64,000 bases of DNA from Thiohalophilus thiocyanatoxydans (GTDB lineage: Bacteria > Pseudomonadota > Gammaproteobacteria > UBA6429 > Thiohalophilaceae). The number at the start of each line of letters is the position of its first letter. Position 1 is the stretch's first letter. The DNA is taken from positions 434,001 through 498,000 of the forward strand of contig NZ_SOQX01000002.1 in the NCBI RefSeq assembly GCF_004366735.1, given 5' to 3'. Position numbers and translations under genes: made by a program. Of the stretch, positions 17,193 through 61,022 are shown one piece after another. The notes below the pieces were generated by a model. It did not search any database. It saw only the letters and a program-made list of their open reading frames with translations, and was not told where the DNA came from.

Positions 17193-17277
17193 TCTTTCCT
17201 TGCCGTGGATTTCTGGCGCCATCCCGGTTAAAATTGCCCGCTAACCTCTGCTTATAACAAAAAAGCCCTGTTCATTG

Positions 17278-18339
17278 ATGATGAACAAACAGACCAATAT
17301 CCCGCCATTCAACCTGAGCTATGACGCCCGCAAGTCATTTCTCGAATTGTTCGAATTATCATCCGGGGATAAAAAACTTGCCGACATACTGCAGCGCCAT
17401 GTTATTCAGCCCAATGTCGATGAGATTGTGGATAAATTTTACGATTTCATGCTCTCGCATGACCGTTTTCGGCCTTATCTCGAGGATAAGGTTCTGATTG
17501 CGCGATTGAAAAAATCTCAACGCAATTATCTTTACACACTTGGCGTTGAGTTTGACACCCCGAACTATTTTGAGGAACGTATACATGTCGGCACGATACA
17601 CAAACAGGTCGGCCTGCCGACGACGTTATATCAGAGCGCATATACCAAACTGCTCGGGATAATTATTGATAAGATTCCGGCTTCGAATGAACAGCCCGGC
17701 GCAAACCGTCGTGAGCTTGAGTCATTTGCCCGGCGCATCACTGCATTCGATATGTCACTTGCCATTCACTCCTACCACGTCGAACATATCCAGGAGATGC
17801 AGGTTTCGCTGAATACGCTTCGCACCGAAGGCGCGCAGTTACGTGATCAGGTCACGACGGATGAATTGACCGGCGTGCATACGCGAAATTCCATTATGGA
17901 AATATTTTCCAGGATGTTGACGCAATCCCGTTCTCAGAAGACCAACCTGAGCCTGGCGATGGTGGACCTGGACCATTTTAAACAGATCAATGATACCCAC
18001 GGGCACCTTGCGGGTGACAAGGTACTGAAGGAGGTGGGTGAGAAAATACAGGGTCTGTTGCGCAGTGAGGATTTCGTGGGCCGCTACGGTGGTGAAGAAT
18101 TTATGATTATTCTGAACAATACCGACCTGGCCGGATCAAACATTGTCATGGAACGGCTGCGTTCGAGTGTTTCAGACAACCCGATCGAAATCGACGATGA
18201 TCAGCATATCCAGGTTACCCTCAGCGCCGGCGTGACCACACTGCGGGAAGAGGATGATGAGGATTCCTTCTTCCACCGCGCCGATGAAGCACTCTACGAA
18301 GCCAAAAACGGCGGGCGTAATCGTGTCGTGAGCCGTTAA
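17278..18339 (+). CDS. Globin-coupled sensor diguanylate cyclase
   Basis: A 353-residue c-di-GMP synthase with an N-terminal heme-globin sensor, the same architecture as oxygen-responsive GCS-GGDEF proteins. The globin half (about 1-165) includes FYDFMLSHDRFRPYL and RIHVGTIHKQVGLP, whose central His is the expected proximal heme ligand. The GGDEF domain has DLDHFKQINDTHGH and an intact active site RYGGEEF near residue 269. RSED just upstream matches the RxxD inhibitory site. Two adjacent ATGs (17278, 17281) are possible starts; TTG at 17275 is less likely. The gene lies between tRNA-Cys and tRNA-Leu, which are adjacent in enterobacteria, so it appears inserted. Confidence 0.9.
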   Translation: MMNKQTNIPPFNLSYDARKSFLELFELSSGDKKLADILQRHVIQPNVDEIVDKFYDFMLSHDRFRPYLEDKVLIARLKKSQRNYLYTLGVEFDTPNYFEERIHVGTIHKQVGLPTTLYQSAYTKLLGIIIDKIPASNEQPGANRRELESFARRITAFDMSLAIHSYHVEHIQEMQVSLNTLRTEGAQLRDQVTTDELTGVHTRNSIMEIFSRMLTQSRSQKTNLSLAMVDLDHFKQINDTHGHLAGDKVLKEVGEKIQGLLRSEDFVGRYGGEEFMIILNNTDLAGSNIVMERLRSSVSDNPIEIDDDQHIQVTLSAGVTTLREEDDEDSFFHRADEALYEAKNGGRNRVVSR

Positions 18340-18495
18340 ACTCCCAACTTGCCGCGCGAACCAGAATATTCTCTTAATAATCAATAATATATAAGCGCGC
18401 CCCTCAACACGGGAATACAGTTTCAGGCCAGGCATCTTTTTCTGAGCTTTCAAATCTGATGCATATGCATGTAGAATATATCCCGTCACACCGCA

Positions 18496-18881
18496 GCCCG
18501 GGTGGCGAAATTGGTAGACGCAAGGGACTTAAAAAATTGAGCACCCGGCTCGGAAACGGCCGGCGTGAATGGAGTCAAATTCGGGGAAACCTCAGCACGC
18601 AGGGTGGTGGCAATCCCGAGCTAAGCCCGATAAAGCACTATCGAGTCACGAGTACCGACAGTTCGGGAATCCCTCGTTACTCGTACCTCGTCACTCGTAA
18701 CTATCTCGGGAAAGTGTAGAGACTTGACGGCTCCTGCCTAAGTTCTATCAAGCTTAGAATAGGGTAAAGGTAAAGTCCAGGCCACAAATGCGTTTTAAGT
18801 ACGCGGCAGCGAAAGCTGTAGTGGTAAGAAAATCCCTCGGTCATTGCGACCGTGCCGGTTCGATTCCGGCCCCGGGCACCA
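18496..18881 (+). tRNA. tRNA-Leu(UAA), interrupted by a group I intron
   Basis: The two exons are 18496-18530 and 18829-18881. Joined they give an 88-nt class II tRNA. Acceptor GCCCGGG pairs with CCCGGGC, the anticodon stem AGGGA pairs with TCCCT, the loop is CTTAAAA (anticodon TAA), the variable arm is CGGTCATTGCGACCG, the T arm is GCCGGTTCGATTCCGGC, and CCA is encoded. The intron splits the anticodon after its first base (U34), the same site as in cyanobacterial and plastid tRNA-Leu introns. It corresponds to leuZ in the uvrC-pgsA-glyW-cysT-leuZ order. It should mature only after self-splicing. Confidence 0.95.
18531..18828 (+). ncRNA. Self-splicing group I intron (probably IC3) in tRNA-Leu
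   Basis: A 298-nt intron with all four conserved group I core elements in order. P is AATTCGGGGAAACCT (18578-18592), Q is AATCCCGAGCTAAGCCC (18612-18628), R is GTGTAGAGACTTGACGG (18714-18730), and S is AAGGTAAAGTCC (18767-18778). It starts after a U and ends in G (18828), as required for group I splicing. The beginning AAAAAATTGAGC resembles cyanobacterial tRNA-Leu introns. A P2-like hairpin (CCGGC/GCCGG) lies at about 18544-18564. The P6 region, between Q and R, is expanded by roughly 70 nt. No homing endonuclease gene is present. Subgroup IC3 is inferred from the core and insertion site. Confidence 0.93.
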
Positions 18882-19015: not shown

Positions 19016-20152
19016 TTACGTCTCCTGTGTGATGACCTGGTTGCGACCATTCTGTTTAGCGGCGTAGAGGGCGTTATCCGCGCGTTTAATCATTTTCCAG
19101 GGGTCGTCATCATTTTCACTGAAGACAGCGACGCCAACACTGACCGTTATCTCGGTTTGCTGTTCGATACGGGAGCGCAACCGTTCCGCCACGTCGGCGG
19201 CCTGTTGGCGATCCTTGTTGCGCAGCAGGATCAGAAACTCTTCACCACCATAGCGGACCGGGAGATCTTCTTCGCGGATACATTGACGTATAATATCTGC
19301 AACCTGGATCAGTAATTTGTCACCCTCCGGGTGTCCATGGGTGTCGTTATAATTTTTGAAGTGATCCAGATCCAGCATGATAACGGACAACATGTTTGTA
19401 CCGCGCCGGGCCGCGGCCCACTCCCGTTTGAGGTTCACTTCAAGATGACGCCGGTTGGCGTGGCCGGTCAGTGAGTCGTGAACGGATTCGTCGTGGGTTT
19501 TTTCATGCTGGCGTGCATTACCGATGGCTATTCCCACTTGCGCGCTCACGGCCTGCCACAGAGTCAATTTACGCTGGGGAAGTGGTTGCTCCTGGGGCAG
19601 ATAATAGTAGAAGACGCCAACAACCTCGCCTTTGGATTTCAGCGGTAAAATAAGATGCCCATGGGGCCGGATCCCCGGGTAGTGGATGGTATGTCGCGAA
19701 TCATTCACACAGTTTTCGGTAACAATCATTTCACCGCTTTGTGCAACCTGGCCACACAGACAGTCACCGACACGCATTCCCTCATGCGCATCCAGGAAGG
19801 GCTGAGTGGAACCGCGAGAGGCAGCCAGCTCCATTTTGTCGTCGTTGATGAGGAATATACCGCAATCAACGGGTGTATCGACCAACCCGGTCATCAGTTC
19901 GAGAGTGTGCTCCAGTAATTCGTCCAGCCACACAGTCTCACTGACAGTGGCGGCCACCTTATGCAGCAAGGAAAGTTCGTCATTGGCGGTTTTCAGTTCA
20001 CGGCTGGTACGTTTGAGTGTTTCCATTGCCTCGGCCCACTGGTGGCGGATCCGTTCCGCCTGGGAGAGCGCTTCGGCATAGGAGTGATTCTTGCGCTCGA
20101 GTTCGGCAATCCGCTGTTGAAGCGCGTCGATTTTTTGGTCTGAATTGTTCAT
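19016..20152 (-). CDS. GAF-GGDEF diguanylate cyclase
   Basis: A 378-residue soluble c-di-GMP synthase. An N-terminal coiled coil (MNNSDQKIDALQQRIAELE region to about residue 60) is followed by a GAF sensor domain (about 65-215, with CGIFLINDDKMEL and LILPLKSKGEVVGVFYY). A GGDEF domain (about 225-378) has DLDHFKNYNDTHGHPEGD and active site RYGGEEF. PVRYGGEEF is preceded by REED, which fits the RxxD product-inhibition site. The ATG at 20152 overlaps the stop of the upstream gene (ATGA), so the pair is translationally coupled and the cyclase probably serves the diiron protein before it. Confidence 0.9.
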   Translation of the reverse strand: MNNSDQKIDALQQRIAELERKNHSYAEALSQAERIRHQWAEAMETLKRTSRELKTANDELSLLHKVAATVSETVWLDELLEHTLELMTGLVDTPVDCGIFLINDDKMELAASRGSTQPFLDAHEGMRVGDCLCGQVAQSGEMIVTENCVNDSRHTIHYPGIRPHGHLILPLKSKGEVVGVFYYYLPQEQPLPQRKLTLWQAVSAQVGIAIGNARQHEKTHDESVHDSLTGHANRRHLEVNLKREWAAARRGTNMLSVIMLDLDHFKNYNDTHGHPEGDKLLIQVADIIRQCIREEDLPVRYGGEEFLILLRNKDRQQAADVAERLRSRIEQQTEITVSVGVAVFSENDDDPWKMIKRADNALYAAKQNGRNQVITQET

Positions 20153-20949
20153 GGGGTGAGATCCGGATAGGCAATATCGGTACCGCAACGCAGATTGCGC
20201 AAATAGTCAAGGGCAGCGGGGACATCGGGTGGCGAAATGATCGAACCGTGTTGAGGTAAAATCGCTTCGATATCCAGCTTGTCGAGCTGGTTTACGAACC
20301 CCCGTGCCGCGACATTGGAAGCCATGTAGTCCAGGTGGAAAAGATCGAGTAAATTGCGATGCTGTTCGAAATCCCTGACCACCAGCGTCCAATCAGTGTC
20401 CAGTGCGGCCCATATATCACCCGACAGAAGATAGCGGGCATGTTCGTCATAGGTTGCAAAGGCGCCCGGAGAGTGAAGATACGGCGCATCAATAAACCGT
20501 AATGCCGAGCCGGAGGGGAGTGTGAGGCGCGATGTGGTTGTGACATCGACATAGGGATAATCACTGCACCCGTAATGGGGTAACAGTACCTGCGTGCGGG
20601 GAGTGGTATAGACCCGGGCATCGGGCGCCTGTTCCAGCCATTCACAGATTGAGGCGGCCACATCGGGATCCTGATGACAGAAAATCAGCCCCGTTATCGC
20701 CTGCGGTTCCAGAATCTGGGCGACACGCTCGTGAACCTGGGGGAAAAAACTCCGGTTGCCCGCATCCACTATCAGGGCCTGATCGCCATCGCGTATCAGG
20801 TAGCTGTTACAGCGGAATGCGGTTTCCTGGGTAATGCCCAGCCAGTAGACTTCGTGATTCTTGTCCAGAAACAGCGGTGTCGGGCGGTTTATATCGATTT
20901 CAATGTTTTTCAAATCGTGCGACCCAATCGTGCTATCGGATGTGTGCAT
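20149..20949 (-). CDS. Diiron metallo-beta-lactamase-fold protein (ODP/FprA-like)
   Basis: A 266-residue stand-alone metallo-beta-lactamase-fold protein resembling the diiron domain of flavodiiron proteins, without a flavodoxin part. Putative iron ligands are in order: HQDPDV (HxDxD), the His of YLHSPGAF, the Asp of LLSGDIWAA, and the His of LPQHGSI. Proteins of this type (ODP) have been described as oxygen-binding sensors linked to signalling modules. Coupling by ATGA overlap to a GGDEF cyclase supports a sensor role here. A plain hydrolase role is less likely given the HxDxDV pattern. Confidence 0.82.
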   Translation of the reverse strand: MHTSDSTIGSHDLKNIEIDINRPTPLFLDKNHEVYWLGITQETAFRCNSYLIRDGDQALIVDAGNRSFFPQVHERVAQILEPQAITGLIFCHQDPDVAASICEWLEQAPDARVYTTPRTQVLLPHYGCSDYPYVDVTTTSRLTLPSGSALRFIDAPYLHSPGAFATYDEHARYLLSGDIWAALDTDWTLVVRDFEQHRNLLDLFHLDYMASNVAARGFVNQLDKLDIEAILPQHGSIISPPDVPAALDYLRNLRCGTDIAYPDLTP

Positions 20950-53639: not shown

Positions 53640-54347
53640 AGAAAGCGACCTCGGTGCTCGCGCTGTCCTTGAACCGGCTCTTCACTGTCAACGGCCAACT
53701 ATCTTTCCTTGTCCCTTTGCTCGTAGCGCCGGATCCACGAAGTTTATGCCCCAAAGGGCGCTTGATCCGACCTGCGGGTTAAACCCGGGTAGGGTGCGTC
53801 CTACGCACCTCGTTCTTGATGCGAGGTTAACGGTGCGTAGAACGCACCCTACTTCTGCGACTGCCGACGGCTATCTGCCAACTGCAAACTATCTTTCCTC
53901 GTCCCTCGTAACTCGTCCCTTGGTCCTGCCCGAAGGGCTGTGAAACGTAGGTCAGGTTGCGCGCAGCGCTACCTGACATTCTCCGTATCGGCAGGGGAGT
54001 CACGCAGGCTAACGCCAGCGTGACCTACAGGATTAGCCAGAGTATAAAGTGCGCATGAAGTTGGAACAGTTGTTTAGAGTCAATGTATCGGTCCGCGTAG
54101 TTCATGCTCCAAAGGGTGCTTGATCCGACCTACCTCGGCTACCAGCCATGTAGGTCAGGTTGCGCGCAGCGCTACCTGACATTCTCCGTATCGGCAGGGG
54201 AGTCACGCAGGCTAACGCGCCAGCGTGACCTACAGGATTAGCCAGAGTATAAAGCGCATGAAGTTGGAACAGGCTATTTGCCCGATACCGCTTCGCTTTA
54301 TCGGGCCTACAGACTGCCGACTGCTATCTGCCAACTGCAAACTATCT
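53640..54347. repeat. Repeat-filled intergenic region between cytochrome and RND operon
   Basis: About 708 bp with no gene. In order: family D at 53681-53722; family E GCCGGATCCACGAAG...GATCCGACC at 53727-53778; an inverted GTGCG-rich hairpin (TAGGGTGCGTCCTACGCACC and partner) at 53791-53851; D at 53852-53940; family A (reverse orientation) at 53947-54028; E at 54098-54130; A again at 54150-54233; and D at 54311-54347. The two A copies sit in a 123-bp unit duplicated with a 203-bp period. Confidence 0.8.
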
Positions 54348-60667: not shown

Positions 60668-61022
60668 TGATGCGAATATGGAAATAACACCGTAAAAACA
60701 ATATTTTATGATTGTTTTTTGATGTTAATTATACGCCATGACTAGCTTGCATGGCTTGAATTGTTCTTTACTGCCGACTGCTATCTGCCAACTGCCAACT
60801 ATTCCTTCTCCTCGTCCCTCGTAACTCGTCCCTCGTCACTGCCCGAAGGGCCCGCCGACTGCTATCTGCCAGCTGCCGACTATTCCTTCTCCTCGTCCCT
60901 CGTAACTCGCCCCTCGTACCTGTCGAAATCGCCTAAAGGCCGATTTCGACTAAGGGGTATCCCTGATACTATTAATAAGGACTCTAAGCTAGGCTAGAGA
61001 TATCGCTAATCAAAGGACCCGC
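60668..61022. repeat. Intergenic region with two tandem family D repeats
   Basis: An AT-rich stretch at 60680-60740 probably holds promoters. Two family D copies follow at about 60770-60850 and 60853-60920, each GCCGACTGCTATCTGCCA... and TTCCTTCTCCTCGTCCCTCGTAACTCG in parts. A short GAAATCGGCC-type inverted pair lies at 60925-60950. No gene is seen. hsdM begins at 61023. Confidence 0.75.

Follow-up and report, generated by a model that had tools for sequence, protein, structure and literature searches.

The tRNA-Leu(UAA) gene in the 64,000-nucleotide stretch of the Thiohalophilus thiocyanatoxydans genome analyzed here (the window) is interrupted by a group I intron. Almost certainly, this is a functional self-splicing intron of the IC3 type that belongs to a lineage patchily distributed among gammaproteobacterial tRNA-Leu(UAA) genes, has been kept by virtue of its splicing and has moved between lineages. 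Taken singly, it is an ordinary, further case of a known intron family.

The gene occupies positions 18496-18881 of the plus strand and consists of a 5' exon that ends with U34 (18496-18530), a 298-nt intron with G as the final base (18531-18828) and a 3' exon that encodes the CCA (18829-18881). The exons were delineated from the sequence and with ARAGORN, and the intron was identified with Rfam RF00028, ARAGORN and a covariance model of the intron core built in this analysis. Removal of the intron, which interrupts the anticodon loop after U34, yields an 88-nt tRNA-Leu(UAA) cloverleaf. By default (no introns), ARAGORN overlooks this gene while calling three other tRNAs in the window; with introns allowed, it calls tRNA-Leu(taa) of 88 bases with a 298-nt intron, placed gactt-intron-aaaat, and the joined exons by themselves are also called as tRNA-Leu(taa) of 88 bases. 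Uninterrupted orthologues have an identical 5' exon and stop exactly where the splice sites are predicted. The position and length of the intron, the split anticodon and the 88-nt product had been proposed in an earlier sequence-only reading, which proved right to the base.

The search with the Rfam group I model that this reading had suggested, and whose failure it would have taken as a refutation, returned a match to RF00028 at 18520-18794 over the full model length (36.3 bits, E 1.1e-7), which does not reach the gathering score of 50, a curation cut-off that corresponds to no biological feature. Four related introns with shorter P6 arms score 52-59, a fifth scores 50.2 and that of the congener 37.1; the long P6b arm is thus the likely cause of the low score. 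Chance is excluded by the covariation in relatives, described below, along with the uninterrupted orthologues that match the predicted splice sites. An open reading frame at 18459-18719 (86 aa) runs across exon and intron and was rejected as a gene. The tRNA gene sits between two convergent genes (17275-18339 and 19016-20188), each of which encodes a terminal GGDEF-like domain (GGEEF motifs).

The conserved elements P, Q, R and S, which the sequence-only reading had considered visible, are located at 18581, 18609, 18714 and 18772, respectively. The P1 helix (18528-18541) is formed by 18528-18532 and 18537-18541, where CUU of the exon and the adjoining AA of the intron pair with UUGAG of the guide TTGAGC, and contains the splice-site pair U18530·G18539. 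The 5' U, TTGAGC and the final G are present in all 51 tRNA-Leu introns, with TTGAGC and the exon end being parts of the search pattern for those from named genomes. Folding delineates a P2 hairpin with a GAAA loop (18542-18567), and GAAA is found near this loop position in 48 of the 51 introns. The 5' strand of P3 (18571-18576) pairs with 18729-18734, with both-side changes in four of the six pairs. P4 (18581-18586/18614-18619) and P5 (18592-18598/18604-18610) include elements P and Q and are identified by the model, covariation and sequence (18581-18619). P6 (18620-18715) comprises 18620-18622/18713-18715, an extension (18626-18630/18706-18710) and the variable P6b arm, as indicated by covariation in P6 and by length variation. 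The pseudoknot helix P7, for which covariation is observed, joins 18721-18725 in element R (18714-18730) to 18773-18777 in element S. The approximate P8 hairpin (18735-18766), with CCTAAG at 18737, is indicated by covariation and folding, and the P9 region (18782-18824) carries a GAAA-capped hairpin at 18807-18818, as judged from sequence and folding.

In an alignment of P3-P8 from 11 introns, which reside in tRNA-Leu, -Arg and -Ile genes, 94.7% of the cells are paired and 18 pairs show both-side changes, compared with 80.9% and 7.2 pairs in shuffles and at most 46.5% and 8 pairs in slid versions; the alignment was partly hand-cut at P6, and, with the exception of P7, which was entered from its known place, the helices of the structure were derived from these very sequences. 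The window intron thus possesses the P3-P8 core helices with the P7 pseudoknot, the U·G pair at the 5' splice site and the terminal G, and the earlier assignment to group I is borne out by these features, the full-model match and the covariation. Introns of the IC3 subgroup are small, lack P5abc and have GAAA loops in P2 and P9. The window intron shares all these features, by which, rather than by a subtype model, it is assigned to IC3; in P8, this copy matches the tetraloop receptor imperfectly (CCTAAG...TAGGG).

The 2.9-Mb genome (completeness 100) has a single copy of the tRNA-Leu(UAA) exons; the next best matches are tRNA-Leu genes with GAG, CAA and CAG anticodons and one place without a called tRNA; exon matching in this complete genome detected no second tRNA-Leu(UAA) gene. 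UUA, a codon whose decoding requires the UAA anticodon, accounts for 28 of the 4311 codons in ten genes of the window. With the only tRNA-Leu(UAA) gene interrupted and UUA in use, we infer that splicing is required for growth and that the window intron must splice in vivo. In the proposed mechanism, CUU of the exon would pair with the guide in P1 of the precursor, a guanosine bound in P7 would attack after U34, the released 5' exon would attack after G18828, and exon ligation would restore the UAA anticodon loop. The persistence of the intron would then be due to splicing. The sub-threshold Rfam score could also be taken as a sign of a decayed, non-splicing intron in a dead gene, but all core residues are kept, the exons are intact and the gene is the sole copy in the genome, so that this possibility is extremely remote.

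This type of intron is common in Gammaproteobacteria. The covariance model matches 24 of the 40 species of the host family and 73 of the 370 gammaproteobacterial species evenly drawn from the class. An interrupted tRNA-Leu gene is present in nine species of the family, including that of the window, and a verified uninterrupted gene in 15; the order pgsA, tRNA-Gly, tRNA-Cys, tRNA-Leu is conserved at several loci. A pattern scan of named genomes yielded at least 50 candidate tRNA-Leu(UAA) introns, four of those listed being false; Novosphingobium and several other matches are uninterrupted tRNA-Leu genes caught through the loose pattern. Among the matches listed are Methylohalomonas lacus, Thioploca, Thiomargarita, Muproteobacteria, Steroidobacteraceae and others, as well as records named Clostridia and Anaerolineales. 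A pattern search of viral contigs found no tRNA-Leu intron of this kind, and the phage and plasmid matches cover less than half of the query. A tRNA-Leu(UAA) intron in a deep-subsurface gammaproteobacterium was reportedly described by Vepritskiy and colleagues in 2002. The view of the intron as rare, adopted in the sequence-only reading, does not hold given these counts and the published cases in Beggiatoaceae (PMC4853749).

Judging from the exons, the introns reside mainly in genes for tRNA-Leu(UAA), tRNA-Arg(UCU) or tRNA-Ile2(CAU); host genes resembling tRNA-Leu(CAA), tRNA-Ser(UGA) and tRNA-Arg(CCU) account for one or a few cases each. The window's genome contains a second group I intron, of 255 nt, in tRNA-Arg(UCU) (G000:C6:83064-83395, L044), and both interrupted genes are missed by default ARAGORN and by the Rfam cut-off. 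The tRNA-Ile2 gene is uninterrupted in this genome and interrupted in the congener. Several ARAGORN labels were rejected: the introns labeled tRNA-Gln(CTG) have the exons GGGACTCAT/AATCCC of tRNA-Ile2(CAU), and those reading Ser(gct) and Phe(aaa) most plausibly stem from misplaced boundaries in Arg(UCU) and Leu(UAA) genes. Related introns were also noticed in tRNA-Leu(CAA) (L038, G043:C7, 550-868, minus strand), apparently after C34 and hence without the usual 5' splice-site U, putatively in tRNA-Ser(UGA) (L220 and L224) and perhaps in tRNA-Tyr (L232). In the L016 intron, element Q is short of bases compared with relatives (GGCACCGAGC for GGCAATCCCGAGC), which possibly reflects decay of the intron or a fault in the assembly.

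In several relatives, introns of 684-734 nt carry an HNH endonuclease gene in P6, in antisense orientation relative to the tRNA; such antisense frames were observed in the tRNA-Leu(UAA) introns L013, L015, L016, L090, L094, L109, L135, L154 and L159, the last one broken in two. Their Pfam matches (HNH_3 or HNH) are weak to moderate, and phage HNH proteins match the intron HNH proteins over 95-98% of the length with at most 49% identity. One Anaerolineales record has an HNH gene in sense. Inspection of the reading frames in the window intron revealed no endonuclease gene; instead, its P6 arm, like that of the congener, contains a hairpin of ACTCGTN-type heptamers (18638-18702 in P6b), delineated by repeat searches and folding; the fold of the arm is not much better than in shuffles (z -1.47). 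The hairpin resembles repeats dispersed in the host genome: the genome contains 13 copies of the heptamer pair ACTCGTNACTCGT and none of the reversed control, and heptamer matches in the window number 10 versus 0.17 expected. Further intergenic degenerate heptamer arrays, with TCGTCAC-like and CTGCCAA-like units, are found at 53897-53919 and 60810-60906 of the window and are dispersed in the genome.

The history of the lineage appears to combine old residence with horizontal movement. In a tree of 84 intron cores, in which many forks remain open due to the few columns, introns in tRNA-Arg(UCU) are united in a single group (100/100), the window intron and that of the congener cluster together (99/75) among tRNA-Leu(UAA) introns, and intron lineages largely track the host tRNA. 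The comparison with host genes (UvrC and PgsA) used 18 loci, the number being limited because pattern-based cutting of cores lost many sequences. Each alignment rejects the tree of the other (delta lnL 65 for the intron alignment on the host tree); nevertheless, the distances between introns are correlated with those between hosts (Mantel r 0.66, p 2e-4), to which one divergent clade may partly contribute. This correlation, as well as the use of one and the same site across many orders and a few records from outside the Proteobacteria, would be expected under strictly vertical descent from an ancient bacterial ancestor shared with the cyanobacterial introns, with the gaps representing losses. 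The mutual rejection of topologies, the intronless orthologues inside a single family and the endonuclease genes in relatives make such a history quite improbable.

Recent acquisition by the genus from elsewhere, suggested by the patchiness within the family and by the GC content (51% for the intron versus 59% for the window), is also unlikely: the intron of the congener is 92% identical and has the same hairpin of heptamers, the window intron is most closely related to other tRNA-Leu introns from Gammaproteobacteria, and low GC is weak evidence because it is common to the conserved core of such introns. Given the disagreement between the trees and the antisense HNH genes in the P6 arm of relatives, patchy descent with horizontal spread seems to fit best. 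Ancient retention and horizontal transfer, offered as alternatives in the sequence-only reading, therefore appear to be mixed. The intron lineage mostly keeps to tRNA-Leu(UAA), is distributed widely but unevenly among Gammaproteobacteria and has moved between lineages, probably, as we infer, by homing while an HNH endonuclease gene occupied the P6 arm.

More generally, the balance tips slightly towards anticodon-loop group I introns being a standing feature of about one-fifth of Gammaproteobacteria, mobile via antisense HNH genes in the P6 arm that were later lost or replaced by genomic repeats, with standard annotation wrongly showing tRNA-Leu(UAA), tRNA-Arg(UCU) and tRNA-Ile2 as absent. Since neither interrupted gene of the host is recovered by default ARAGORN or at the Rfam cut-off, the introns might explain some of the "missing" essential tRNAs in gammaproteobacterial genomes. 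Homing into tRNA genes can be tested in this class, including the cultured carrier Methylohalomonas lacus, on the basis of the presence/absence pattern, the site fidelity and the antisense HNH genes.

Reviews describe the group I introns of bacterial tRNAs as mainly cyanobacterial, with a few cases in alpha- and betaproteobacteria (PMC4033280), and the gammaproteobacterial context of the window intron corrects this view. The cyanobacterial and plastid tRNA-Leu(UAA) group I introns, according to the portions of PMC4033280 and PMC3488679 that cite Paquin 1997 and Costa 2002, interrupt the same tRNA gene. Those of Nostoc are 270-365 nt long and have a variable P6b arm of degenerate heptanucleotide repeats (PMC3488679), a likeness to the window hairpin in form and not in demonstrated descent. 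By published description, the host phylum and the heptamer sequence differ, and some gammaproteobacterial members have an HNH gene in P6. The tRNA-Ile2(CAU) introns of Azoarcus (PMC3984707) and of Acidovorax and Burkholderia (PMC8450103) have a related core, matched by the same covariance model in Gammaproteobacteria, but reside in another tRNA, are inserted after U36 and represent a mostly separate lineage in the 84-core tree. Another parallel is the pair of putative group I introns in tRNA-Leu-TAA and tRNA-Arg-TCT of Beggiatoaceae (Thiomargarita, BOGUAY; PMC4853749): the same two tRNAs are interrupted in the window's genome, in another gammaproteobacterial lineage, and several Leu introns of the Thiotrichaceae type have a different P7 sequence (GGCCAT).
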